Shown here: positions 1,292-30,957 of the stretch, piece by piece
How positions within the stretch are numbered: the stretch's first letter is position 1
Layout: every line of letters starts with the position of its first letter
DNA from: an uncultured Clostridia bacterium
GTDB taxonomy: Bacteria; Bacillota; Clostridia; Oscillospirales; Acutalibacteraceae
Assembly: GCA_905235625.1 (NCBI GenBank)
Contig: CAJOLX010000013.1
Location: 1-33,364 of the forward strand
DNA: 33,364 nucleotides
Direction of reading: 5' to 3'
Translations under genes and position numbers: made by a program
The notes under the pieces: generated by a model
The model's database searches: none
What the model was told of the DNA's origin: nothing
What the model saw: only the letters and a program-made list of their open reading frames with translations

Positions 1292-2572
1292 TTATATTTT
1301 TGCCGGAGCTTCTCTGTTGCTTCTTTCTTTTTCTTTGGGCTTTTCGGTGATGTCGCCGGAGGCGATCAGCGCTCTTTTTGTGAGCGCGGGGCCGACGAGC
1401 TCGTATATCAGCACGGAGAAGAGGATGATATTTCTTATTGTGCTGCCTATGCTGCCCAGCTCCATGGCGGTTGCGGACATTCCGAGCGCAACGCCCGCCT
1501 GAGGCAGCAGAGTTATGCCGAGATTTTTGGTGATTTTAGGCTCGCATTTCGTTATTTTCGCGCCGCTGAACGCTCCGATATATTTGCCGAGCGAGCGGGC
1601 TAAAATATAAGCTATGCCTATTCCGACAACCGCGGGGCTTTTGAATACGTCAAGCTCAAGCTCCGCGCCGCTGAGCACAAAAAACAGCACGAGCAGAGGC
1701 TGAGTCCAGCGGTCGGTTTTTTCCATTAAATCGGGCGAAAAATCGCAAAGATTGCAAAACATCGTGCCGAGCATCATGAGGGTGAGAAGGGTCGAAAAAC
1801 CTATCGTCAGCGAGCCTATGTGAAACTCAAACTTTGACACCGCAACGCTAAGAAGCACTGCCGTTACCGAAAGGCTGAGCCTTTTGGAATTTGACGAAAA
1901 GAGCTTTTCCGACGCCGTGAGCGCCGCTCCCATGAGCGCGCCGAGCCCGAGCGAAAGCGCTATTTCGAGCAGAGGCTCCGCAATAATCGAAACAACGTTG
2001 AATTCTCCGTTTTCCATGGCGGAAGCCGCTCCGAATGAAACGGAAAATATGATAAGACCCACCGCGTCGTCTATGGCGACTATCGGCAGCAGCAGGTCGG
2101 TAAGCGCGCCCTTGGCTTTATATTGACGCACGACCATCAGCGTTGCGGCGGGCGCTGTCGCTGCGGCTATCGAGCCGAGCACTATCGCCATTGATAAGGG
2201 CAGCCTGTCGCCGAGAATAAAGTGCATGCCCACTAAAACCGCATCCACGCAGGCTGTCGCCGCGACTGCCTGCCAAACGCCTATAAACGCCGCCTTTGAG
2301 CCGATTTCTTTAAGCTGCGACAGGCGGAATTCATTGCCTATCGCGAAGGCTATGAAGCCGAGAGCGACGTCGGAAATGAGCGAATAAGACGCAACGTCAC
2401 CGGCGGAAACGAAGCCGAGGCCTTCTATGCCGAATCTGCCGAGCACGTACGGGCCGACTGCTATGCCTGCTATGAGATAAGCGGTTACCGAAGGCAGGCC
2501 GAAGGGCTTTGTGAGCCTTGAGGCGAAAAGACCTGCCGCAAGAGCAACGGAAACTGCAAACAGAATTTTCAT
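1292..2572 (-). CDS. CPA2-family monovalent cation:proton antiporter
   Basis: Integral membrane Na+(K+)/H+ exchanger of the Na_H_Exchanger family (PF00999), likely used in pH or ion homeostasis. The protein is about 426 residues with about 12 hydrophobic segments. The core motif VAIDDAVGL, with the paired acidic residues of the ion site, and a TAPAAT stretch before it fit the CPA2 fold. No C-terminal TrkA-N/RCK domain is present; it ends soon after the last helix in a charged tail. The start is set at the ATG at 2572, preceded by GGAGAA. The longer open frame upstream would start inside the promoter -10 region. It is monocistronic and convergent with gpmI. Substrate preference cannot be read from the sequence. 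Confidence 0.9.
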   Translation of the reverse strand: MKILFAVSVALAAGLFASRLTKPFGLPSVTAYLIAGIAVGPYVLGRFGIEGLGFVSAGDVASYSLISDVALGFIAFAIGNEFRLSQLKEIGSKAAFIGVWQAVAATACVDAVLVGMHFILGDRLPLSMAIVLGSIAAATAPAATLMVVRQYKAKGALTDLLLPIVAIDDAVGLIIFSVSFGAASAMENGEFNVVSIIAEPLLEIALSLGLGALMGAALTASEKLFSSNSKRLSLSVTAVLLSVAVSKFEFHIGSLTIGFSTLLTLMMLGTMFCNLCDFSPDLMEKTDRWTQPLLVLFFVLSGAELELDVFKSPAVVGIGIAYILARSLGKYIGAFSGAKITKCEPKITKNLGITLLPQAGVALGMSATAMELGSIGSTIRNIILFSVLIYELVGPALTKRALIASGDITEKPKEKERSNREAPAKI

Positions 2573-2617
2573 AATTTCTCCGAAAATAAAAAAGAGTGTG
2601 ATAAAATCATCTTCAAA

Positions 2618-2646
2618 AATATAGCACAAGGCAAACTCTCAGTCAA
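2618..2646 (-). promoter_or_regulatory. Promoter of the antiporter gene
   Basis: On the minus strand, TTGACT (2646-2641), a 17-bp spacer and TATATT (2623-2618), with a TGC extended -10. The leader to the ATG at 2572 is about 40 nt. Confidence 0.75.
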
Positions 2647-2718
2647 GAAAAAAGCGTTTTAAATTATGCCGAAAACGCATAAATCGGAAATTTGTTTAAA
2701 AAATCGTAATTAAAAGTA

Positions 2719-2747
2719 TTTAATTATATTAAAGAGTGTGATATAAT
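2719..2747 (+). promoter_or_regulatory. Promoter of the GH51-to-M18 operon
   Basis: Extended -10 TGATATAAT (2739-2747) with a weak -35 (TTTAAT, 2719-2724) at 17 bp. The stretch AAAGAGTGTGATATAAT (2731-2747) is nearly repeated at 2591-2607 as AAAGAGTGTGATAAAAT, which may be a second start site or a shared regulator site. Confidence 0.65.
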
Positions 2748-2814
2748 AAACCGAATATGTAAAAATCGGGCTTACTCTGCTCCCTTTGCCGAGGCGCCCT
2801 TTTCGGAGGACACA

Positions 2815-4293
2815 ATGGAAAAATATCTCATCAATCCCAATGAAAAGAAATCACAAATAAGCAAGGACATTTACGGCAACTTTTCCGAGCATCTCGGCAG
2901 GTGCATTTACGAAGGCCTTTACGTGGGCGAAAATTCCGATATTCCAAACGTAAACGGAATGAGAATTGACGTTGTAAACGCCCTTAAAGATATGGGGCTC
3001 CCCGTACTTCGCTGGCCGGGCGGCTGTTTCGCCGATGAATACCACTGGGAAGACGGCGTCGGCCCCAAAGAAAACAGAAAGAAAATGATAAACACTCACT
3101 GGGGCGGCGTTACGGAGGATAATTCCTTCGGCACCCACGAGTTTTTTGAGCTTTGCGGTCAGATAGGCTGCGACGCTTATATCACCGGCAACCTCGGCAG
3201 CGGCTCCGTGAGAGAAATGAGCGAATGGGTTGAATACATGACCTTCGGCGGCGACAGCCCGATGAGCAATCTGCGCCGCAAAAACGGCAGGGAAGAGCCC
3301 TGGAGGGTGAAGTATTTTGCCGTCGGCAACGAAAATTGGGGCTGCGGCGGAAATATGGACGCCTATTACTACGCCAACACCTACAAGAAATACGCAACCT
3401 ACGTTCGCAATTACGACAGCGGCAACAGAATTTACAAGGTCGCGTGCGGCCCGAACGGCGAGGATTATAGGTGGACCGAAGAGCTTATGAAAACCGCCGG
3501 CAGAAACATGGACGGCCTTGCGCTTCATTACTACACCATAACTCACAATTGGAGCAAAAAGGGCTCCGCGACCGAGTTTAACGAGGATGAATACTACGCT
3601 TGCGTGAGCAAGGCGTATAAAATCGACGAAATCATACGCAGGCACCTTGAAATAATGAACAGATACGACCCCGCGAAGAGAGTCGATCTGATAATAGACG
3701 AATGGGGCACCTGGCACGACGTTGAGCCCGGCACGAACCCCGGCTTCCTCTATCAGCAAAACACCATGAGAGACGCCGTTGTCGCCGCCCTGAGCCTCAA
3801 TATATTCAATAAGCACAGCGACAGAATCAGAATGTGCAACATCGCTCAGACCATAAACGTGCTTCAGGCGGTCGCCCTTACCGACGGCGACGAAATGGTG
3901 CTCACTCCCACTTATTTCGTTTTCAAAATGTTTAAGGACCATCAGCAGAACACTCTGCTCGGCTCTCACGTAACTACGGATGAATCGGGCTGCGAGCAGG
4001 GCAGGCTGCCCACTCTTATCGAAAGCGCTTCCGAAGACGAAAACGGCGTGATTTACTCAACCGTTGTCAACACGAGCGCGACCGACAAAAAGCAGATAAA
4101 ATGCCAGGTGGCGGATTCTTCCGTTAAATCCGTCAAGGCGGAAATTCTGACGGGCAAAATCGAGGCTTACAACAGCTTTGACAATAAAGAAGCGGTCAAA
4201 ACGCAGGCGTTTTATGATTTTGAAACGACCGCCGACGGCTTCACCGCCGAGCTTCCGCCCTGCAGCATAGTTAAATTCATCATCGAAAAATGA
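2815..4293 (+). CDS. abfA: Alpha-L-arabinofuranosidase, glycoside hydrolase family 51
   Basis: Releases terminal L-arabinose from arabinan, arabinoxylan or arabino-oligosaccharides by a retaining mechanism. The 492 residues match the normal GH51 length. Glu173 in GNENWG is the predicted acid/base and Glu296 in IIDEWGTWH the predicted nucleophile; [13 protein letters not shown] (66-78) and [12 protein letters not shown] are further family blocks. A C-terminal beta-sandwich follows. There is no signal peptide, so it acts in the cytosol on imported oligosaccharides. GGAGG at 2805-2809 supports the ATG at 2815. It is first in the operon, and its stop overlaps the start of the next gene (ATGA). 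L-arabinose use is also represented by araD, 11 kb away in another operon; araA and araB are not in the window. Confidence 0.95.
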
Positions 4294-4541
4294 CCGATAA
4301 CGTAAGGCCCTGCCGCTGCCTGCTTGCCGAAATCGGCAGGCAGGAAACGGCAAACGACATAAAAGAGCGCATTTCAAGGCTGTCCGAAAAGGAAAAAGCC
4401 GATGAAAAAGAATATCGCTCCCGCCTTGAAACGTGCAGGTCCTGCGAGCATCTTGCGGACGGCACCTGCCTCAAGTGCGGGTGTTACCCGGAATTCAGAG
4501 CGGCGTTTGCCAAAAACAAATGTCCGCTGAAAAAATGGTAG
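4290..4541 (+). CDS. Small cysteine-rich protein, DUF6171-like
   Basis: An 83-residue protein of unknown function. The N-terminal half is charged and helical. The C-terminal half carries [19 protein letters not shown] and NKCPLKKW, with Cys pairs spaced like a small zinc-binding knuckle. This layout resembles the short Firmicutes family DUF6171, recognised by motif memory only. Its ATG overlaps the GH51 stop (ATGA), so it is probably translationally coupled. The Cys-rich tail suggests metal binding; no catalytic role is evident. Confidence 0.8.
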
Positions 4542-4559
4542 AATGAGGTTATTCGCATT

Positions 4560-5555
4560 ATGAAACATATTATCCCCGCGCTTATTACAGCCGCAATGCT
4601 TGCCCTTCTGGCGTCCTGCTCTCTGGGAGGAAATCTGTCGGGCAACGTTTCCGAAACGGAAACGGCCGACGCCTCTTTGACCGAAGATATTACGGACGAA
4701 AGCAGTGACGGCGCGGAAACCGGCGAAAGCGAAGCCGTAACTTATCCGGAGCTTACGATAAATTTCGATAAAGAAACTTCCGTGCCACCCACCGAAGCGA
4801 CTGCGACCACGGCGCCGACGACAGCCGCGACGAAGCCTTCAACGACCGGTACGACTGCGGCAAAGCCGACTTCAACGACCGCCAAACCCGCCACGACGGC
4901 TAAACCGGTGACGACCACCGCCAAGCCGACGACGACCGCGATAAATTACGAGGGCGAAACGAAAATCCAAAGCGAAACCTACAGAGAAAATCTTAAATAC
5001 GGCGTTTACCGCAGCGTTAACGCAAAAGTTATTTATGCCGTAAATGACGACGGCTCTCTCAAAAAGCTCGGCAACCAGAGCGAATCCTCAACTTACGTTA
5101 GGTTCAATTATTCCGCGAGCTACAGCGATTTGCTCCCCGCCGCAAAGCAGAACGCAGCGGCGTATGAAGGTTACATAAACGAGGTATTGAGGCTCACTAA
5201 CGAAATGCGCGCAAAAGAAGGCCTCGCACCGCTCAAGCTCAATTCAAAGCTCACCGAGCAGGCAAACGTCAGAGCGGAGGAAATCGCGTGGAGCGGCCAG
5301 CACAGCCACACAAGGCCCGGCTACAAATATTTCACCACCATTTTCAGAGAAAACGGTCTTGACTCGGGCACTGCGGGCGAAAACATCGGCTGGGGCTATT
5401 CAACGCCCGACCAGGTGTGCAAGGCGTGGAAAAATTCCGAAACTCACTATGAAAACATAATGAACGGCAAATATAAGAGCATAGGAATAGGCGTTGCGCC
5501 CGATTGCGACCCCGACAAAAAGCTCTGCTGGGTGCAGCATTTTTACAGCGAATAA
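4560..5555 (+). CDS. Secreted CAP-domain (SCP/PR1-like) lipoprotein
   Basis: A 331-residue exported protein. A lipoprotein signal ends in LLASC, with lipid-modified Cys20. An acidic stretch (about 27-75) and a low-complexity Thr/Ala/Pro/Lys linker (about 76-130, repeated TAKPTTT units) then hold the folded part away from the membrane. The C-terminal ~125 residues form a CAP domain with LTNEMRAKEGLAPL, HSHTRPG, AGENIGWG and HYENIMNGKYKSIGIG, including the usual His and Glu cavity residues. CAP domains of this type occur widely in secreted proteins of Clostridia and Bacilli; their function is mostly unknown. GAGG at 4545-4548 precedes the ATG. It lies 18 bp after the DUF6171 gene and 10 bp before the DUF951 gene. 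Confidence 0.92.
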   Translation: MKHIIPALITAAMLALLASCSLGGNLSGNVSETETADASLTEDITDESSDGAETGESEAVTYPELTINFDKETSVPPTEATATTAPTTAATKPSTTGTTAAKPTSTTAKPATTAKPVTTTAKPTTTAINYEGETKIQSETYRENLKYGVYRSVNAKVIYAVNDDGSLKKLGNQSESSTYVRFNYSASYSDLLPAAKQNAAAYEGYINEVLRLTNEMRAKEGLAPLKLNSKLTEQANVRAEEIAWSGQHSHTRPGYKYFTTIFRENGLDSGTAGENIGWGYSTPDQVCKAWKNSETHYENIMNGKYKSIGIGVAPDCDPDKKLCWVQHFYSE

Positions 5556-6821: not shown

Positions 6822-8426
6822 ATGAAAACTCTTCACCTTTCCGCGTCGGAGCCGGGCTCTGCCGAAATCGCGGCGGAGATTTTGAAAAACGGCGGCATCG
6901 TCGCCATACCCACCGAAACGGTTTACGGGCTCGCCGCGTCGGCGCTTGACCCGAACGCGGTCAAAAAAATATTTGAGGCAAAGGGCAGGCCGCAGGACAA
7001 TCCTCTGATAGTCCACATAGCGAAGCTCGACGACGTTTATCCTCTCGTTGAGAAGGTTGACGAAAGACTTTACCCTCTCGCGGAAAAATTCTGGCCCGGA
7101 CCCCTCACCGTCATCATGAAAAAATCGGCTCTCGTGCCTTACGAGGTGACCGCGGGGCTTGACACGGTAGCGATAAGAATGCCCTCTCACCCCGTGGCGA
7201 GAAAGATAATCGAGGCGTCCGCTCTGCCGCTCGCAGCCCCGAGCGCAAATGCGTCGGGCAAGCCGAGCCCCACCAAGGCGAGCCACGTTATCGAAGACCT
7301 CGACGGCAAAATCGACGCTGTCATTGACGGCGGCGAATGCTCGGTAGGCGTTGAATCGACCGTGCTTTCGCTTGCGGGCGAAACTCCCGTTCTGCTTCGC
7401 CCCGGAGGAATATCCCCCGAAGAAATAGAAGAGGTCATCGGCAAAACGGAAATATCCCACGCCGTTTTTGAAAAGCTCGCGGCGAACGAAAAGCCTTCTT
7501 CGCCCGGCATGAAATACAAGCACTACGCCCCGAGAGCGAGAGTGTCGCTCGTAAAAAGCGATTTTGAGTCTTATCTGAATTTCGTTAAGGCTCAGAAATA
7601 CGAAACCTGCGCCGTTTGTTTCGACGGCGAGGGCAAAAATTTTGACGTTGCCGTGGAATACGGCAAAAAGGACGATCCCGCCTCGCAGGCAAAAAGAGTG
7701 TTTGACGCTCTGAGGCAGGTTGACGAAACGGGCTGTGAATTTGCCCTTGTACGCTGCCCCGAGCCGACCAAAGAGGGCCTTGCCGTTTACAACCGTCTTC
7801 TCAGAAGCGCCGCCTTCAGAGTGATCGGCCTTGATTTCAAACGCCCCGTTTACGGGCTCACGGGCCGCTCGGGCTCGGGCAAAAGCACCGTGGGCAAAAT
7901 GCTTCGGGAAATGAACGTAAACGTCATTGACGCCGACAAGCTCGCGAGAAAAGCCGTTGCCGACCCCGACGTTATCGCAAAGCTTCGGGAATATTTCGGC
8001 GAAGATATAATCAAAGACGGCTCGCTTGACAGGCGCCTTCTTGCCGAAAGAGCGTTTTCGTCCCCCGAAAAAACCGCTCTGCTCAACAAGGCGACTCACC
8101 CCGAAATATCGAGGCTTGTCATTGAAGAAATCCACTCGGGCGAGGCTCTGGGCAAAAGAGCGTCCGTAATCGACGCGCCCGTGCTGTTTGAAAGCGACCT
8201 TACGTGCCTTTGCAAAAAGGTCATCTGCGTAACGGCGCCCGAGAATGAAGTCATCAAACGCCTTTCTCTCAGAGACGGCATAACCGACGAAGAAATCCGC
8301 TGGCGCCTCTCCGCTCAGAGAGATGAAGAATATTATAAATCGAGGTCGGACATAATCATCGAAAACGTCGACCCCGAAAAAACGAGAGAGAAAGTCATAA
8401 AATTCACGGAGGAGGAATTATCATGA
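6822..8426 (+). CDS. tsaC-coaE: Fused L-threonylcarbamoyladenylate synthase (Sua5/TsaC) and dephospho-CoA kinase
   Basis: A two-enzyme fusion of 534 residues. Residues 1-~210 are a YrdC/Sua5 domain that makes threonylcarbamoyl-AMP for t6A37 of tRNA (KGRPQDNPL 54-62, PSANASGKPSPT 140-151). Residues ~225-335 include the SPGMKYKHYAP linker and a Sua5 C-terminal domain. Residues ~342-534 are a complete dephospho-CoA kinase for the last step of CoA synthesis, with P-loop GRSGSGKST (348-356), VIDADKLAR and a LID-like RWRLSAQRDEEYY region. There is no stop or internal ribosome site at the junction. Sua5 and CoaE are normally separate proteins of ~340 and ~200 residues, so both halves look complete. 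The gene starts 1 bp after prfA and ends overlapping the M18 gene. Confidence 0.95.
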   Translation: MKTLHLSASEPGSAEIAAEILKNGGIVAIPTETVYGLAASALDPNAVKKIFEAKGRPQDNPLIVHIAKLDDVYPLVEKVDERLYPLAEKFWPGPLTVIMKKSALVPYEVTAGLDTVAIRMPSHPVARKIIEASALPLAAPSANASGKPSPTKASHVIEDLDGKIDAVIDGGECSVGVESTVLSLAGETPVLLRPGGISPEEIEEVIGKTEISHAVFEKLAANEKPSSPGMKYKHYAPRARVSLVKSDFESYLNFVKAQKYETCAVCFDGEGKNFDVAVEYGKKDDPASQAKRVFDALRQVDETGCEFALVRCPEPTKEGLAVYNRLLRSAAFRVIGLDFKRPVYGLTGRSGSGKSTVGKMLREMNVNVIDADKLARKAVADPDVIAKLREYFGEDIIKDGSLDRRLLAERAFSSPEKTALLNKATHPEISRLVIEEIHSGEALGKRASVIDAPVLFESDLTCLCKKVICVTAPENEVIKRLSLRDGITDEEIRWRLSAQRDEEYYKSRSDIIIENVDPEKTREKVIKFTEEELS

Positions 8427-19112: not shown

Positions 19113-22100
19113 TCAGCCGCCGATTACGTTTAAGAGAGCAGCTACCGGCTTAAGCATCTGGCCGAAGACCCAAGCAATCTTTCCAAAGAATGTGAGGCTG
19201 TAGGACCAGGATTCAGATTCTTTGCAAACGATGCAGACGTGCTCCTTAGTGCCGTTTCTGAATGCGGTAGCTTCTTTGGTGATATACTCTCCGCCCCAGG
19301 CATGGCCTTTTGCAGAGATAATCTCGGGAGCGGTTCCGTAGTTTCCGCATCTGTCGCACTTGGTGTAGGAGCTTTGGCCGGATTCAGCGCAGGTCGCTTC
19401 TTTCGCGGGATAAGTTGTGAACGAGTGACTTAATCTCGGAATAACGACTTTAGCCTGGGTTTCAACACCGCAAACGGTGCAAACCTTGTATTCCTTGTAT
19501 CCGTCTTCTGTGCATGTTGGTTCTTTGGCAGGAACTTTTTCTTCCTTATGGCCGAGAGCTTTTATTACTGCCTTCTCAATTATATTTTCATTACAGACAG
19601 TACAATAGGAATATGCTTTGTAACCATCTTCTGTGCAAGTAGGTTCTTTGGCAGACACTTTCTTTTCTTTATGGCCTTCTGCAGGCAACATTTTTCCTTC
19701 AAAGAATCCGCAATTAGTGCATTCTGTTCCTTTGCGACCACACTCAGTGCATGACTCGCTTGAATTCACATTTTTGTTGTTATGAGGAAGAGAAGTTGAA
19801 ATTTCATATGAATCGGGATCTATATAATCGCAACGGCTGCACTTTTTAGCTGTTATGCCATCGTTAGAACACGTTGCCTCTTTAATGTTTATCGTTTCAA
19901 ATTTATGTCCTAACTTTGGCACTTCTCCTACTTTTTCATCCTCGTGTCCGCAAGTCTTACAAATATTGGCGGTATAGCCTCCTTCAGTACATGTGGCCTT
20001 AATTGTTATTGTCTCATAATCATGTGGTTTGTCTTTCTGGATTGATTTAGAATCGTCTACATTAAGGCAGAGAATGCATTGATTAACTATTTTTCCTCCA
20101 GTTTTGCAATTAATTTCTGTAACAGGCTCTTTATCTTCAGGGATTGTTTTGCTTCCGGAAGGCATGCCTTCGTCATCGTATCTTTCAATTTCTACCCATT
20201 GACCTTCATCGTTTTTACAGATGGTAACTGTTTTATTGTTATCATCAATGTAGTATGCTGCTCTTTCATAATAATTGTGTTCGAGTTTTTTAATTGCTTC
20301 TTTTTCAAGTGGTTTCACACCATCATCAATTTTGCCTTTGACAGTATCATTACCAAGCTCTGACCAAGCCTGCTCTAAAATTTCGATTATATTTTTTGCA
20401 CTATTGTCAGCCTTGGAATTTTCCCAAAGAATTTCGGAGGCTTTGGCTGCTATTTGTTCCAATGTAAAGCCGTTGTCGCCTTCCAGATTGTTAGGAACAA
20501 ATTTTGCTTCTCCTTCCTCGGTTTTCCATGCGCCGTAATTTGTAACAGCATCGGTAAAAATCTTTTCAACATTGCTTGAAAACTCAGCTTTATTATTGCT
20601 TGCTTTTTTCGAAGCAAATGCCGAATTTATCTGCCCGGGTATATCGCAATTTTGTTTTTCTTCCTTATAACTATCGCTATAGTGGGTGCTGTCGGAATCA
20701 TTTACAACTTTAATCATTGCGCTAAGATTGCCTCTGCTGCTGATTTTAGCAACTTCATCCTTTGAAAGCCCAATGGGATAATTAAGGCAACCTTCGTTTG
20801 TACAAACTTTTATTTTGTAACCGCTTTCATCGCATGTAGGCTCCTTAGAAATAATCCACATTGACAGAGCATGCTCGCCATACTCTTTTCCTTCCCGTGT
20901 TTGAGCTTTGCCGTTCTCATTAAGTATTTCTTCGCCGCAAGCATTGCAATAAAGAGTTTCTTCGCTATAGCTTACGCATGTTGCCGGTTTGGTTTCTTTC
21001 CATTCTTCCGAAACATGGTTTTGGGGATTTATTGACAAACTTTTACTTGAAACAATAATCCCACATACGGTGCAATAACTCTGCTCTTCACCCGGTTTTA
21101 CACAAGTTGCTTCAATGGTTTTTATTTCAATGTTGTGATCTCCTTTTGGAATTGACTGTTCTTCTTTGAATTTTTCACAGTATTCACAAGTAGTGGTAAC
21201 TTTTCCTTCTTTCTCACAAGTTGCTTCCACTCTGTCATAAACAAGCTTATGTATCCCTGTTATTTTTGTCAGTTCTTCCGAAAGCTTTTTGTTGCAGTCA
21301 ATTTGATTTTTGTTGACAACAGAATTTTTTTGTTCTTCTGTCAATTTATCCCAATCATCGCCGAGTTCTTTTCCGCTTTTGTCTATATACTTGGTTTTCT
21401 TAAATTCATTGTCACTGGATTTTGCTTTACAATTTTTACATTGAAGAACAATTATTCCGGGTTTTTTATCTGAATATTTTTCACAATCATCAACTTTTTT
21501 TGATACTTCCCAATCATGCTTACAGGTTTTTTCGATTACTTTAACGTCGCTCATATCAAAAATGCCGCAAACCAAGCATTTTTTAGCTTCTTTACCGTCT
21601 TTATTACATTCTGCCTCTTGCATTATTTCATAGTTTTCGGACCATGAATGAGGTTTTAATTCTATTGCGTCGCCCTTCTTAACAAACGCATAGCAGTCTA
21701 GGCAATAAACATCGCCCTCATAGCCTTCTTTGCTGCAAGTACTTTCTGTGTTGTGCCTTTTTTCCTCAGAGTTTTTGTGGTCATGATTATAAATCATTTC
21801 AAAATTAACTGATTTATCACTTGAGAAAATTTTGTTCCAATCAGAGTATGTGCCCGAATAGTAAACAGTTTTAATTAAAGAGTCCGTAAATGCATTGGAA
21901 TCAATTGATTTAACCGATTTCGGAATAAAAATACAATCAATTTTTTCTAAATCTACAAAAGCCTTAGCTCCAATTGATTGCACACTGCCATCATCTATTG
22001 TTAAAGTGTCAATTTTTTCTGCATACTGTTTCCAAGGTAAATTATCCTGATCCTCAATGTCGGGAATATCATCTACAAAACGAAGTTCATAATGATTACC

Positions 22101-22283
22101 TTCTTCATTTTCGTCAGAATAGTAGTACCAGTAATCGCCTTTTTCATAGGGCTTTCCTTCTCTCGCATCAGCAGCGTTTGCGGTTATTAAACCTACCTGC
22201 ATGCCGATGAGCGCTCCAAAGGCCATAATGAGAGCCATTACGACCGAAAGAGCCCTTTTTGCTGATTTTTTTGCTACTTTCAT
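19113..22283 (-). CDS. Large secreted protein: BspA-like leucine-rich segment plus ~15 degenerate Cys-rich repeats
   Basis: A 1056-residue exported protein. A signal peptide (about 1-37, ending ITANAADA) is followed by a BspA-type leucine-rich segment (about 85-165, VQSIGAKAFVDLEKIDCIFIPKSVKSI...). About 15 repeats of ~35-45 residues follow, of the form ATCTEDGYKxxxxCTVCGxxxxxxVIPxxGH, each with one Cys then a CxxC pair and usually a His. A Lys/Glu-rich spacer (about 525-720) interrupts the series. The C-terminal helix FFGKIAWVFGQMLKPVAALLNVIGG is hydrophobic; no LPXTG is seen. The repeats resemble extracellular zinc-ribbon-like modules of unknown function in gut Clostridia. GAGGAGGT precedes the ATG. 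The first two thirds are visibly richer in A+T than neighbouring genes, suggesting a different origin. Confidence 0.88.
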   Translation of the reverse strand: MKVAKKSAKRALSVVMALIMAFGALIGMQVGLITANAADAREGKPYEKGDYWYYYSDENEEGNHYELRFVDDIPDIEDQDNLPWKQYAEKIDTLTIDDGSVQSIGAKAFVDLEKIDCIFIPKSVKSIDSNAFTDSLIKTVYYSGTYSDWNKIFSSDKSVNFEMIYNHDHKNSEEKRHNTESTCSKEGYEGDVYCLDCYAFVKKGDAIELKPHSWSENYEIMQEAECNKDGKEAKKCLVCGIFDMSDVKVIEKTCKHDWEVSKKVDDCEKYSDKKPGIIVLQCKNCKAKSSDNEFKKTKYIDKSGKELGDDWDKLTEEQKNSVVNKNQIDCNKKLSEELTKITGIHKLVYDRVEATCEKEGKVTTTCEYCEKFKEEQSIPKGDHNIEIKTIEATCVKPGEEQSYCTVCGIIVSSKSLSINPQNHVSEEWKETKPATCVSYSEETLYCNACGEEILNENGKAQTREGKEYGEHALSMWIISKEPTCDESGYKIKVCTNEGCLNYPIGLSKDEVAKISSRGNLSAMIKVVNDSDSTHYSDSYKEEKQNCDIPGQINSAFASKKASNNKAEFSSNVEKIFTDAVTNYGAWKTEEGEAKFVPNNLEGDNGFTLEQIAAKASEILWENSKADNSAKNIIEILEQAWSELGNDTVKGKIDDGVKPLEKEAIKKLEHNYYERAAYYIDDNNKTVTICKNDEGQWVEIERYDDEGMPSGSKTIPEDKEPVTEINCKTGGKIVNQCILCLNVDDSKSIQKDKPHDYETITIKATCTEGGYTANICKTCGHEDEKVGEVPKLGHKFETINIKEATCSNDGITAKKCSRCDYIDPDSYEISTSLPHNNKNVNSSESCTECGRKGTECTNCGFFEGKMLPAEGHKEKKVSAKEPTCTEDGYKAYSYCTVCNENIIEKAVIKALGHKEEKVPAKEPTCTEDGYKEYKVCTVCGVETQAKVVIPRLSHSFTTYPAKEATCAESGQSSYTKCDRCGNYGTAPEIISAKGHAWGGEYITKEATAFRNGTKEHVCIVCKESESWSYSLTFFGKIAWVFGQMLKPVAALLNVIGG

Positions 22284-25580: not shown

Positions 25581-26402
25581 TTATTTATTTTTTTTCTTCT
25601 CTTCAAAAGCCGCTTTCTTTGCCGCTTTTTCGTCGTAAATATTTTGCGCCTCTTTTTCAATATCAACGGCAGGCAACGTAAAGCCCGTTCGCAGCGCCTG
25701 AACGCATTGCTCGGTGCGGTCGTTTATTCTGCGCTCTTTGCCGTCGGTGACAAAAACGTTTCCGGTTTGACCGAAGGTGAAGTTCACGCCGTATTTTTTG
25801 CAGCTTTCGTAAGCCGATTTGACCCATTCGTAATGCAGAGGACGGCTGCCGAGATAATTCTCTCCGCCCGCGAGCACCCATTCGACCTTGCCGTCGGCAA
25901 GATATGGGTCGAGCTTAACCTCGCCTATAAACGGCTTGAGGCTTATCCACCTGTGCTTTGCGGGCAAAGCTAAAAGGTGAGGCATTCTTTCGTCAAGGCG
26001 CTTTTGATTTTCGCACGAAACGGCAAAGGTCACGTTGTCCCAGCCGTCGCCCCAGTCATCGGGCAGATTTGCGCTTATGCGCTCGGCGCGTTTCGTGAGC
26101 AGAGAAAACATAAGGTCGGGGCGGGCTCTGATTACGTCCCAGGCGTCTTTTCTCCACTCGTCCGCTTCTTCAATGAAGAAATCGCTCGACATGCAAACTC
26201 TCACGTTTGAGCCGCCGGGCATTTTGAATTCGCCGTTTCTGTCTTTTTTTACCGGAGCGTCAAAGCCGGATTTATTCCGCGCCACCTCGTCAGTGTTTCT
26301 GCCGTAGCGTTTGTCAAGAAAAAACGCGTAGCAGTTTTGGCAGCCTTCGCTGTATTTGTGGCAGCCGTGCCACGGGTTCCATACTAAATCGTGCCTGTCC
26401 AT
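25581..26402 (-). CDS. DUF5131 (phage Gp37/Gp68-like) three-Cys protein
   Basis: A 273-residue protein of PF07505 type. The N-terminal signature WNPWHGCHKYSEGCQNCYAF gives Cys14-x6-Cys21-x2-Cys24. SLLTKRAERI, NVTFAVSCENQKRLDERMPHL, RWISLKPFIGEV and WVLAGGENYLGSRPLHYEW are typical further blocks. The family is widespread in bacteria and phages and is considered related to radical-SAM-like folds; no function is established to my knowledge. GAGGCG precedes the ATG. It lies 13 bp after a lipoprotein gene on the same strand. A TcmP-type partner gene, often next to such genes, is not seen here. The tail is Lys/Glu-rich. Confidence 0.85.
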   Translation of the reverse strand: MDRHDLVWNPWHGCHKYSEGCQNCYAFFLDKRYGRNTDEVARNKSGFDAPVKKDRNGEFKMPGGSNVRVCMSSDFFIEEADEWRKDAWDVIRARPDLMFSLLTKRAERISANLPDDWGDGWDNVTFAVSCENQKRLDERMPHLLALPAKHRWISLKPFIGEVKLDPYLADGKVEWVLAGGENYLGSRPLHYEWVKSAYESCKKYGVNFTFGQTGNVFVTDGKERRINDRTEQCVQALRTGFTLPAVDIEKEAQNIYDEKAAKKAAFEEKKKNK

Positions 26403-27923: not shown

Positions 27924-28238
27924 TTATTCGCCTAATCCTACCGCTTTGTCAACGGGCAGAGAGAAGGCTATGCCCATGCCTGCGGTGTTCAGCCCCGCTT
28001 CGCGGTAAATGCCGAGCAGCACATCGTCCTTTATGCTCTCGGGCACGATTATCATCACGATTTCTTTTTCGGGCTGAATGTTAATGTGAAAGAATTCCTC
28101 AGCCTCGCGGTCTGCCGTGCCGCGCCCGCGCAGAAGGGTGCCTCCGCCTGCGCCCGCTTTTTTTGCCGCGTCCATAACGGTTTCCGAAAATCCCGTGTTC
28201 ACTATGCAGAACACAAGCTCATATTTTTGCTCATTCAT
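27924..28238 (-). CDS. PII-like signalling protein A
   Basis: A 104-residue protein with the ferredoxin-like layout of GlnB/PII proteins. A first strand (YELVFCIVN) and helix are followed by GAGGGTLLRGRGT, where PII proteins have the strand leading to the T-loop. The strand KEIVMIIVP, a helix, and GMGIAFSLPVDKAVGL (like the GDGKIFVxPVExxxRI end of PII) complete the fold. The T-loop region is shorter than in canonical ~112-residue PII and lacks the uridylylated Tyr context. PII-like proteins bind adenine nucleotides or other small ligands and gate transporters or enzymes. A strong AAAGGAGG precedes the ATG inside the upstream gene, which it overlaps by 8 bp. It is third in the DUF1538 operon. 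Confidence 0.85.
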   Translation of the reverse strand: MNEQKYELVFCIVNTGFSETVMDAAKKAGAGGGTLLRGRGTADREAEEFFHINIQPEKEIVMIIVPESIKDDVLLGIYREAGLNTAGMGIAFSLPVDKAVGLGE

Positions 28239-28626
28239 TTGCCGTTTCCTCCTTTAAGGCTCTGCGGTCGTTGCTCAAAAATCCGAAAAGCGCCGTGCCT
28301 GCCATGCTTGTCAGCGGCACCGCGACGGCAACTCCGTCACCGTCTCTTATGCTGCGGAATTTTTGCTCGAGAGCGTCGGCAAGAGCGTCGAGCCTGTCTT
28401 CTCTCACAATGCTGAAAATCGCGGTTTTATCAGGGTCGGTAAGCCCTAAATATTGCATCACTTCGCTGCTTGCTGTGCCGTGAGCAGGCACGGAAGCCTG
28501 CATATTAACGTCAAAAGACTGTATGAAATCAATGTAAAAGCCCGCTTTGCCGCGCGGGACGACCGTGATGAGCAGTTTAAGCTTCATCGGCGCCACGTGG
28601 CGGATTTTTTCGTTTTCATTCGGCAC
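28231..28626 (-). CDS. PII-like signalling protein B
   Basis: A 131-residue second PII-like protein. After a ~15-residue extension it shows LKLLITVVPRG, a helix (AGFYIDFIQSF), a strand with ASVPAHGTAS, KTAIFSIVRE, the helix DRLDALADALEQKF and GDGVAVAVPLTSMAG, the same order as protein A. Both end in a G-V/I-A-x-x-x-P strand. The start is set at GTG 28626, 8 nt after AGAGG; the GTG at 28635 lies inside that ribosome site, and the ATG at 28578 (MKLKLL) is a further option. It lies 12 bp after the DUF1538 gene and overlaps protein A. The family call rests on fold pattern and context, so it is less certain than for A. Confidence 0.75.
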   Translation of the reverse strand: MPNENEKIRHVAPMKLKLLITVVPRGKAGFYIDFIQSFDVNMQASVPAHGTASSEVMQYLGLTDPDKTAIFSIVREDRLDALADALEQKFRSIRDGDGVAVAVPLTSMAGTALFGFLSNDRRALKEETANE

Positions 28627-28638
28627 TTCTCTCACCTC

Positions 28639-30171
28639 TTATTCAAAATATATTATCTCTGCGTCGTCCGCCGACAGTATGCGTTTTCTCGCTCTGTTTG
28701 ACCTCACCCTGCTTGTCAGCACCGCTTTGAAGCCCAGCGCCTGTATCGTTATAAGCGGGGTCATTGCCACCATTGCCACAACTCCGAAGGCGAGGGAAAG
28801 CACCTCGCTTTCGCCCTGCAAGGCGGCGCAAACTCCTATTGCGAACGGCAGAATAAAGCTTGAAGTGAGCGGGCCGCTCGCAACTCCGCCCGAGTCAAAC
28901 GCAATCGCCGTGTAAAGCGGCGGCACGTAAAACGACAAAGCGAGAGAAATTATATATCCTGGTATCAAATAATAGAGAATTGAAAAATCAAAAATAATTC
29001 TCACTATCGAAAGGCCTATCGAGGCTCCCACGCCTGCCGAGAGAGCTATCATCATCTGACGCCTTGTCACCCCGCCGCCCGTTATGTCTTCAACCTGGCT
29101 GTTGAGCACGTGCACCGCAGGCTCCGCCAAAACGACGACCATGCCTACCATAAATGAAAAAATTATGAGAATCGGCGTGCTGCCCGTTGCAAGCTCCGTG
29201 CCGAGCCTGAAGCCTACGGGCATAAAGCCTGCCGTCGCCGCCACGAGGAAAACGCAAAGCCCCACGAAGGTGTAAACTATGCCCACCGTGATTTGATAAA
29301 TCTTTCTGCGCGGGAGTTTCAGCACCGTCACCTGCAAAGCGGCGAAAACAGCCATTATCGGCAGCAGGGATTTCGCAACGCTCCATAAGGTTTCAAGCGC
29401 CATGTGAACGAAAGAAGACCCGAAGCTCGCTTCAATGCCGTAATCCTGCAGCTCATAACTGAGCTCGCCCTCAGTGCCGAGCGCCAAAAGCAAAACGGAT
29501 ATTACGGCGCCCACCGAGCAGAGAGAAACGAGGCCGAAGCTGTTTTCTCCCGCGTTCTTTCCGCCTGCGGTCAGCGCTATGCCCACTCCGAGCGCCATTA
29601 TGAACGGCACCGTTATCGGGCCCGTTGTAACGCCGCCCGAGTCGAGCGCAAGGGGCAGAAACAAATCTTTTCCTCTCTCGAGCAAAAGCGAAACGAGGGC
29701 AAAAAGAAGCAGATAAGAAAACAGAAGCAGGCCGGACAGGCTCTTTTGCCTGAGCACTCTGAAAACGGCAAGCAGCATGAATACGCCCACTCCGGCTCCG
29801 ACGGCGGCTGTGAGCGTGAATTTATTTATAACCGCGGCAACCTGAACGGCAAGCACAGACAAATCGGGCTCGGCTGCGGTTATCAGCACGCCCATGATGA
29901 AGCAGACCGAAAACAGAAGGGGAATCTTTTTTGATTTAGTGAGTCCTTCGCCCATATACTGCCCCATGGGGGTCATTGCCATATCGGCGCCGAGATTGAA
30001 AAGAGCAACTCCGATAATCAAAAAAACGGAAGAAACGGCAAATGCGCCGAGCTCTGCGCGCGTGAGAGTGGCCGACGGCAAAAGAGCCGCCAGCAGCACG
30101 AGCGCGGACACCGGCGCAACCGAGCCGAAAGCCTCTTTAAGTTTTGGTATCAGGGCTTTGCGAACCTGCAT
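28639..30171 (-). CDS. DUF1538 membrane protein with internal duplication
   Basis: A 510-residue polytopic membrane protein built from two homologous halves. AEPD (100-103) and LDSGGVTTGPIT (176-187) in the first half correspond to AEPA (349-352) and FDSGGVASGPLT (425-436) in the second, with the same 77-residue spacing and a 249-residue period. LFNLGADMAMTPMG and FLVAATAGFMPVG are also paired. An inverted or tandem repeat of this kind is typical of transporters and channels, and the DSGG and AEP motifs inside hydrophobic segments are candidate substrate or ion sites. The substrate is unknown. GGAGG precedes the ATG at 30171. It is first in a coupled operon with two PII-like genes and has a perfect consensus promoter. 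Confidence 0.9.
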   Translation of the reverse strand: MQVRKALIPKLKEAFGSVAPVSALVLLAALLPSATLTRAELGAFAVSSVFLIIGVALFNLGADMAMTPMGQYMGEGLTKSKKIPLLFSVCFIMGVLITAAEPDLSVLAVQVAAVINKFTLTAAVGAGVGVFMLLAVFRVLRQKSLSGLLLFSYLLLFALVSLLLERGKDLFLPLALDSGGVTTGPITVPFIMALGVGIALTAGGKNAGENSFGLVSLCSVGAVISVLLLALGTEGELSYELQDYGIEASFGSSFVHMALETLWSVAKSLLPIMAVFAALQVTVLKLPRRKIYQITVGIVYTFVGLCVFLVAATAGFMPVGFRLGTELATGSTPILIIFSFMVGMVVVLAEPAVHVLNSQVEDITGGGVTRRQMMIALSAGVGASIGLSIVRIIFDFSILYYLIPGYIISLALSFYVPPLYTAIAFDSGGVASGPLTSSFILPFAIGVCAALQGESEVLSLAFGVVAMVAMTPLITIQALGFKAVLTSRVRSNRARKRILSADDAEIIYFE

Positions 30172-30227: not shown

Positions 30228-30256
30228 ATTATATTATAGCGTTTTCCGCTTGTCAA
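30228..30256 (-). promoter_or_regulatory. Perfect consensus promoter of the DUF1538-PII operon
   Basis: Minus strand: TTGACA (30256-30251), 17-bp spacer, TATAAT (30233-30228). The predicted leader is about 50 nt. Confidence 0.92.
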
Positions 30257-30314: not shown

Positions 30315-30343
30315 TTGAATATTATTTCTATTTGTGATAGAAT
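30315..30343 (+). promoter_or_regulatory. Promoter of mntP
   Basis: TTGAAT (30315-30320), 17-bp spacer, TAGAAT (30338-30343) with a TGA extended -10. It overlaps the in-frame ATG at 30334 and so rules that start out. A small GCCG/CGGC hairpin (about 30358-30374) lies in the leader; no yybP-ykoY riboswitch is recognisable. Confidence 0.85.
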
Positions 30344-30396
30344 ACAGCTCAAAACGCAGCCGGTTAAATTTCGGCTTCAATCGGAAAGTGATTATT

Positions 30397-30957
30397 ATGG
30401 GTTTCTTTGAAATAGCTTTAATAGCCGTCGGCCTTGCAATGGACGCCTTCGCGGTGTCTGTTTGCAAGGGGCTTTCCATGAGAAAAATGGAATGGAAAAA
30501 GGCTTTGATAATCGGCGCTTATTTCGGAATATTTCAGGCGGGAATGCCCGTTATAGGATATCTGCTCGGCGCTTCGTTCAGCTCGTTCGTTGAAAAAATC
30601 GACCACTGGATAGCTTTTGCGCTGCTTTTGCTGATAGGCCTTAACATGATAAGAGAGGCAATCAAGCCCGACAGCGGCGATCAGAACGACAAGGTGGATT
30701 TTAAAACGATGATTTTGCTCGCCGTTGCCACGAGCATTGACGCATTGACGGTAGGCATTACGTTTGCGTTTTTAAGCGCGAATATTTTTCTGTCGGCGGC
30801 GATAATCGGAATAATTACCTTTGCGCTGTCGGTAATCGGCGTTAAAATCGGCAATAAATTCGGCGATAAATTTGAGAGCAAGGCGGAAATTGCGGGCGGC
30901 GTGATACTGATTCTCATCGGCGCGAAAATCCTGCTCGAGCATCTCGGAATTATTTAA
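30397..30957 (+). CDS. mntP: Manganese efflux pump MntP
   Basis: Exports Mn2+ to protect against manganese excess. A 186-residue membrane protein of the family length with six hydrophobic helices. The two repeated acidic motifs are present: [14 protein letters not shown] (first half) and [14 protein letters not shown] (second half), whose Asp residues lie in the transport path. The start is the ATG at 30397, after GGAAAG and downstream of the promoter at 30315. It is divergent from the DUF1538 operon and is followed by a hairpin region shared with convergent cdsA. Regulation by Mn is expected from the family, but no operator or riboswitch is visible. Confidence 0.95.

Follow-up and report, generated by a model that had tools for sequence, protein, structure and literature searches.

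A 33,364-nucleotide stretch of DNA from an uncultured Clostridia bacterium (GenBank assembly GCA_905235625.1, contig CAJOLX010000013.1, positions 1 to 33,364; hereafter the window) was found to carry three consecutive open reading frames (ORFs) on the minus strand, which the ORF listing gives in the order of a membrane protein with two DUF1538 domains, PII-1 and PII-2. The association of DUF1538 with PII genes is real and stronger than is visible from the window alone, and the function of the transporter is known at the family level. We propose, with a probability of about 0.62, that the operon encodes a monovalent cation/proton antiporter of a fused UmpA-UmpB type together with a dedicated PII-type regulator made of two different subunits. 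The features on which this proposal rests are as follows.

28639..30171, minus strand: fused DUF1538-DUF1538 (UmpA-UmpB-like) membrane protein of 510 amino acids (PF07556, AlphaFold2 model and charge counts).
28231..28635, minus strand: PII-1, the proximal gene, a PII-fold protein of 134 amino acids, or 131 from GTG 28626 (profile match to PII-2, AlphaFold2 and Foldseek).
27924..28238, minus strand: PII-2, the distal gene, a PII-like protein of 104 amino acids with GGT...RGT and GxGIAFxxPV motifs (PF00543 at 23.9 bits, family profile and alignment).
28639..28719, minus strand: predicted cytosolic C-terminal tail of the transporter, running from near residue 485 to the stop codon, with the conserved acidic-hydrophobic motif SADDAEIIYFE at its end (motif counts in relatives).
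29866..29871, minus strand: E101-P102 in the N-half AEP motif, at the interruption that separates predicted helices 83-100 and 102-110 (AlphaFold2 helix limits).
29119..29124, minus strand: E350-P351 in the C-half AEP motif, at the interruption that separates predicted helices 332-349 and 351-363 (AlphaFold2 helix limits).

A survey of genomes revealed PF07556 (DUF1538) in 63 of the 147 genomes of the host's order and in 101 of the 299 genomes of its phylum. A locus was examined in each of the 63 order genomes and, of the 101 in the phylum, in 82; the window's genome belongs to both sets. The 19 remaining phylum genomes, whose DUF1538 matches are weaker, were left out, and the extra copies of multi-copy genomes were covered in part. 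Outside the window, 152 loci were examined in two batches of 100 and 52. In 149 of them PII follows the transporter directly and on its strand, namely in 100/100 loci of the first batch (including L088, where the gap is 553 bp) and in 49/52 of the second. The remaining second-batch loci have PII upstream (L260), have none (L281) or are cut by the contig end and not assessable (L303). A scan of named genomes gave 585 relatives, the best 80 of which all have PII; 78 of these show two PII ORFs and the other two, L175 and L205, show one on contigs ending within 40 bases. The highest transporter identities among these best 80 of 585 relatives (65-66%) were to Ruminiclostridium assemblies from water deer stomach compartments. 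PII was also present in all eight plasmid records opened, of nine found; two of these plasmids are of Alphaproteobacteria and carry umpA-umpB-PII, and RefSeq records annotate the DUF1538 neighbour as 'P-II family nitrogen regulator'.

By record title, the operon was found in Clostridia, Bacteroidales and Fibrobacter assemblies in addition to the plasmids of the two Alphaproteobacteria; no claim of cassette transfer between phyla is made, since the taxon labels need only four changes and follow the titles of metagenome-assembled genomes. A redundancy check indicated that no two of 277 DUF1538 ORFs longer than 200 amino acids have identical last 180 residues. All 125 PII-profile matches of the first batch lie inside these operons, and among the 147 order genomes the PII-2 profile was detected in 63/63 that carry DUF1538 versus 5/84 of the others, four of these five being weak matches (E 2e-4 to 1e-3) and one a strong match to an orphan PII pair. 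The initial annotation had suggested a functional link between the DUF1538 protein and PII, to be abandoned if the adjacency was not conserved in related genomes. The three collections (149/152 loci, the best 80 relatives and the eight plasmid records) show that it is conserved and support the link, and a transporter-PII operon link of the kind known from AmtB-GlnK and SbtA-SbtB is present here.

The 510-amino-acid protein matched PF07556 in two stretches with 387.5 bits in a Pfam search (cut-off 22.6), which places it in DUF1538; the initial annotation had given this family the number PF07158, which is incorrect. It had also held that no substrate is assigned, and this does not apply at the family level. 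Meng et al. 2017 (PMC5484666) showed that UmpAB of Halomonas zhaodongensis, a heterodimer of two DUF1538 proteins, catalyses Na+(Li+,K+)/H+ exchange over the range pH 6.5-9.5. The 4.2-kb clone is described as carrying a truncated ORF1 and ORF2-4, none of them a PII, and the main text contains neither P-II or PII nor 'nitrogen regulatory' or glnB as a term (PMC5484666). Since antiport was obtained from a clone with no described PII, transport in that system can do without PII, as one would expect if PII is a regulator. DUF1538 also appears in a table of pH-adaptation genes of a machine-learning study (PMC13255231), and UmpAB is mentioned in a paper on cable bacteria (PMC10030654). A link between PII and DUF1538 was not found in the open-licence PMC literature, among the matches listed.

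The AlphaFold2 model of the transporter has a mean predicted local distance difference test score (pLDDT) of 87.6 and a predicted template modelling score of 0.88 (65 sequences), and we read the fused DUF1538 protein as two inverted halves of seven helices each (7+7). The two homologous halves noticed at first were readily recovered, as the AEP motif starts at residues 100 and 349 and the DSGG motif at 177 and 426, with a period of exactly 249. Foldseek returned no PDB chain similar to the model at E 0.001 or better (best E 0.019), and no kinship to a known transporter fold was drawn from the pyrophosphatase or CLC rows because their template modelling scores were low.

Counts of lysine plus arginine on the two membrane sides, which the author of the report assigned from the helices of the AlphaFold2 model, are consistent with the inversion. 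In the window transporter the counts on side 1 and side 2 were 9/4 for the N half and 2/12 for the C half, and the means over 80 proteins with the termini counted were 10.3/1.4 and 3.2/10.4, respectively. With the termini, the bias was towards side 1 in 80/80 N halves and towards side 2 in 80/80 C halves, and among split pairs towards side 1 in 18/18 UmpA and side 2 in 18/18 UmpB. Without the termini it was retained in 80/80 N halves, 73/80 C halves, 18/18 UmpA and 10/18 UmpB. This opposite charge bias is the pattern of inverted repeats with the N and C termini inside, so that the two halves look like inverted repeats with both termini in the cytosol. We infer an opposite orientation of the UmpA and UmpB units in UmpAB ourselves; it is not taken from PMC5484666. 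Single DUF1538 genes as balanced dual-topology proteins were considered and rejected, with only five rows and a mixed charge result.

Alignment of the halves revealed that the residues corresponding to E101 and E350 are glutamate in 80/80 N halves and 80/80 C halves, and that D426 is aspartate in 80/80 while D177 is aspartate in 73 and glutamate in seven. In the split homologues the acid at the AEP site is glutamate in 18/18 UmpB and 15/18 UmpA (aspartate in three), and the acid at the DSGG site is aspartate in all 36 UmpA and UmpB sequences. Acidic residues at broken helices suit cation/proton exchange in antiporters generally, and E101 and E350, placed at helix breaks by the model, would fit such an exchange in the window protein.

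The arrangement of the PII genes was scored in the first batch, which with the window comprises 101 loci. Two PII domains are present wherever the transporter is fused (79/79 loci), encoded by one tandem PII gene in 59, by two PII genes in 19 and by two tandem genes beside two transporters in one. The 17 split umpA+umpB loci have one PII (six loci), a tandem PII (eight) or two single PII genes (three, among them L155 with two cassettes of one PII each), and five loci, including L130 where the gene lies beside fragments of a second, belong to the class of single DUF1538 genes. The presence of both PII domains on one chain in many relatives argues for a physical assembly of PII-1 and PII-2, and a heteromeric PII-1/PII-2 regulator is likely from the gene arrangements. 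The earlier suggestion of a heteromeric or two-input PII pair gains support in this way from the 59 of 79 fused loci in which one gene encodes both domains. A fusion of DUF1538 with PII was suspected in L116, which has a 746-amino-acid ORF with PII domains, and was discarded because the transporter is encoded there in a different reading frame. The evolutionary distances of transporter, PII-1 and PII-2 correlate moderately (Spearman 0.42, 0.48 and 0.50; 76 loci) and are not counted as evidence.

The two small proteins were assigned to PII by different routes. PII-2 alone scored 23.9 bits against PF00543, just under the cut-off of 25, and the profile of its family (52 relatives) matched solved PII chains with a best E of 6.8e-7 (others 0.0006 and above), the best match being 9p1x, titled 'P-II family nitrogen regulatory protein'. 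PII-1 alone gave no believable Pfam match (best 16.6 bits, cut-off 27), and its profile gave nothing significant against solved chains (best E 0.082, an acyl carrier protein). Comparison of the PII-1 and PII-2 profiles gave 98% probability (E 2.6e-13), and the AlphaFold2 model of PII-1 (pLDDT 83.2, 60 sequences) matched PII, GlnK, PotN, PstA, SbtB and CPII structures in the PDB, with a best Foldseek E of 4.2e-5 and probability 1.00, so that PII-1 has the ferredoxin-like PII fold by model. The identification of both small proteins as PII in the initial annotation, which a non-PII fold in either would have overturned, thus holds by the model for PII-1 and by profile only for PII-2. In a separate observation, the only PF00543 match in the search of the window's own genome was to the C-terminal part of a 578-amino-acid ammonium-transporter-like ORF, apparently an Amt-PII fusion, located after a glutamine-synthetase-like ORF in L253 (G000:C55:7000-11406; 1707-3443, plus strand; labels by eye).

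The motifs of the two proteins differ. GGT was present in 68/79 PII-2 versus 1/79 PII-1 and is absent from the PII-1 of the window; in a separate scoring, three rows given as 'GGT in N domain' are matches at another site. A GxGIAF-type motif was found in 52/79 PII-2. Canonical residues for ATP and 2-oxoglutarate were mapped onto PII-2 with too much uncertainty and were not used. Canonical GlnB and GlnK carry a tyrosine in the T-loop for uridylylation. The T-loop stretch of the window PII-2 has no tyrosine and so departs from that type, and PII-1 has one tyrosine in its T-loop region, which may not be the canonical one. Both T-loops had been called short at first, and this stands only in modest form, as the PII-1 model has 16 residues between strands 2 and 3, and the T-loop region of PII-2 has about five residues fewer than that of archaeal GlnB but differs by no more than one residue in length from that of the 9p1x PII chain.

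Fused transporters of the window's clade have a tail of variable length after the last helix that bears an acidic-hydrophobic motif (D..II.F). One pattern of this motif matched 77/79 relatives of the window's subfamily (shuffle mean 2.8, maximum 8). By locus class it was found in 16/19 fused transporters with two PII genes (shuffle mean 0.8, maximum 4) and 37/60 with tandem PII (mean 2.1, maximum 9), and in none of 80 N-half ends or 17 UmpB tails; tails shorter than eight residues were uncounted, namely one fused row with tandem PII, one of 18 UmpB and three of five single genes. The motif was first seen in the very proteins used for counting it, so the counts are not blind. With a looser pattern, the motif occurred together with a PII-1 lacking the 'RKEIV'-type PII signature in 57 rows, neither feature was seen in 18, and a diverged PII-1 alone in three. 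On the tree, from which L145 with its two cassettes was left out, the motif was present in 57 of the 59 rows that form one main clade and in none of the other 19.

In the fused loci scored later, excluding L281 and ORFs of 440 amino acids or less, the motif was found in 13/35 tails (shuffle mean 2.5, maximum 7). All 13 were scored with a diverged PII-1, although for L304 the class had been taken from PII-2 in place of PII-1, so that this locus has to be disregarded; 18 loci had neither feature and four a diverged PII-1 only, two of which (L249 and L264) keep GGT and were misclassed by the pattern. An independent, repeated origin of the tail motif and the diverged PII-1 was not supported, with three and two changes on the tree, and of the two usable independent pairs PII-1 had changed in the same way in one and showed no difference in the other. 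The joint distribution is a hint that PII-1 became a docking subunit with the tail as its partner.

From these data we put forward a mechanism in which PII-1 and PII-2 would assemble as a heteromeric ring on the cytosolic face of the transporter. The cleft of PII-2 would be the sensor for a small molecule, which is probably a nucleotide, and PII-1, which has lost the usual PII motif, would bind the transporter, perhaps through the acidic-hydrophobic C-terminal tail. The ligand state would then turn antiport up or down. A more specific form, which we regard as tentative and more likely wrong than right, is a heteromer with divided labour, PII-2 being the metabolite sensor and PII-1 an adaptor that clamps the D..II.F tail peptide of a PII-controlled cation/proton antiporter. 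If true, PII would dock here by a route other than plugging with the T-loop, and its partner would be a pseudo-twofold transporter in place of a threefold one.

Several observations weigh against an antiporter with a dedicated two-subunit PII regulator. A pseudo-twofold antiporter offers a PII ring no obvious fit. Without the termini the inverted charge bias is seen in only 73/80 C halves and 10/18 UmpB (5 against). The cleft motifs are not kept everywhere, as the second domain of tandem PII has GGT in 64/69 and the GxGIAF-type motif in 13/69, and the latter pattern is also retained by 28/79 PII-1. The stricter tail motif is missing from 23/60 tails of fused transporters with tandem PII, and the motif and the diverged PII-1 are concentrated together in a single main clade, which makes them close to one evolutionary event that was kept for long. 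There is one clear exception to the adjacency, L281 (G363:C36), whose fused DUF1538 gene (3837-5336, minus strand) lies in 9.5 kb of sequence searched for PII without a match. Conversely, the orphan PII pair, L252 (G058:C49; 6121-6953, minus strand), comprises two PII genes of this type in a 92% complete genome with no DUF1538 match. Finally, the window protein scored 140.7 bits against the NCBIfam equivalog UmpA (cut-off 490) and 138 against UmpB (cut-off 500), and it is therefore filed as a DUF1538 relative of UmpAB and not as UmpAB itself.

Because these equivalog cut-offs are missed so widely, the substrate of the fused subfamily may differ, and it could move something other than Na+ or K+, for example an anion or an organic substrate, whose uptake PII would then gate in the manner of SbtA or AmtB. 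To our knowledge only one member of the DUF1538 family has been assayed, and none of the PDB fold matches reaches E 0.001, which leaves no relative from which a function could be borrowed. The membrane acids at the helix breaks are nevertheless common to UmpA and UmpB, as is the DSGG-site aspartate (36/36), and we consider such a change of substrate rather unlikely. The PII pair might instead be a structural or stability subunit, that is an assembly factor or membrane tether, and not a ligand-controlled gate; the lack of GGT in 78/79 PII-1 and an adjacency as tight as that of an obligate subunit would agree with this. It appears quite improbable given that PII-2 retains GGT and the GxGIAF-type motif in the proportions given above and that UmpAB antiport was obtained from a clone in which only ORF1-4 are described, none as PII (PMC5484666).

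Control may also run in reverse, the transporter recruiting PII to the membrane so that its state controls a PII that acts elsewhere. The same genomic signature would be expected, and AmtB, which sequesters GlnK at the membrane, is a precedent. However, within the order surveyed this type of PII hardly occurs in genomes that lack DUF1538, and mntP, the one other neighbour tested, recurs in only 2/80 and 0/100 loci, and we regard reverse control as very improbable.

PII proteins are textbook sensors of the nitrogen, carbon and energy state. In gut and rumen bacteria a relative of a known antiporter is almost always followed directly by PII genes, which suggests that ion balance, too, is under the control of the PII family. 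If true, a PII dedicated to a family of Na+(K+)/H+ antiporters would tie cytoplasmic pH and ion balance to the metabolic state. The assayed DUF1538 antiporter family gains a candidate kind of regulator, and the action of PII on a non-trimeric transporter becomes testable in a compact three-gene system.

Within the window, which comes from a 2.06-Mb genome of 93 contigs rated 100% complete, the overlap of 8 bp between PII-1 and PII-2 was exactly as first described (28231-28238). The 12-bp gap given between the transporter and PII-1 is correct if PII-1 starts at GTG 28626; from the earlier GTG 28635 chosen by the ORF tool the gap is 3 bp. The Shine-Dalgarno sequence is better, as judged by eye, at GTG 28626, hence the two lengths of 131 or 134 amino acids. 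One further feature precedes the operon.

30228..30256, minus strand: promoter-like site with a 12/12 match to TTGACA-17-TATAAT, ending 56 bp upstream of the DUF1538 start codon (motif scan).

Five promoter-like sites were found in the region against 2.5 (standard deviation 1.6) in shuffles, and this is the only perfect one. Riboswitch control of the operon was rejected, as the window has no Rfam match and no riboswitch lies directly before DUF1538 in 12 other loci checked. As isolated observations, the gene for RNase P RNA ends shortly upstream of DUF1538 in L134, and in L130, where the last PII gene of the cassette extends to 6927, a c-di-AMP riboswitch (RF00379, 102 bits; 6991-7163, plus strand) starts just after it. 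The gene mntP (PF02659), for putative manganese efflux, is divergent beside the operon (30334-30957, plus strand), and a manganese link was rejected on the low recurrence of this neighbour. Elsewhere in the window, on the minus strand, are a 1056-amino-acid ORF at 19113-22283 with a weak BspA-type leucine-rich repeat match (25.7 bits, cut-off 27.7) and a DUF5131 family protein at 25581-26402 (157 bits).

We rate the proposed operon as a variant of PII-controlled transport, in which antiport is already published for the family. A review from 2023 (PMC10710835) has AmtB/Amt1, Nrt, Urt and SbtA in its table of PII-regulated transporters. UmpAB shares with the window operon the DUF1538 family, two homologous seven-helix units, which UmpAB needs together, and conserved acidic residues, but in the window the two units form one 510-amino-acid chain followed by two PII genes, PII being unmentioned in the UmpAB main text. 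The AmtB-GlnK system likewise has a transporter gene beside a PII-family gene, but GlnK is described as plugging a trimeric ammonium channel with its T-loop (PMC10710835), whereas the window operon has one chain with predicted inverted halves, two different PII subunits and a somewhat shorter T-loop in PII-2. SbtB, a nucleotide-binding partner of SbtA (PMC8352866), is similarly a PII-like protein from the operon of a transporter with inverted repeats; SbtA, however, is a trimeric bicarbonate transporter of 5+5 helices and DUF1538 is predicted to be 7+7.

The NifI1 and NifI2 proteins of nitrogenase control are paired PII proteins that provide two different subunits from one operon; they share the two-PII operon with the window and differ in acting on nitrogenase and not on a transporter. 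The chain 9p1x may be a NifI, which is a guess on our part. SbtB and GlnK insert their T-loops into trimeric partners (PMC8352866, PMC10710835), and a fused inverted-repeat antiporter with two PII types would extend this mode of control.

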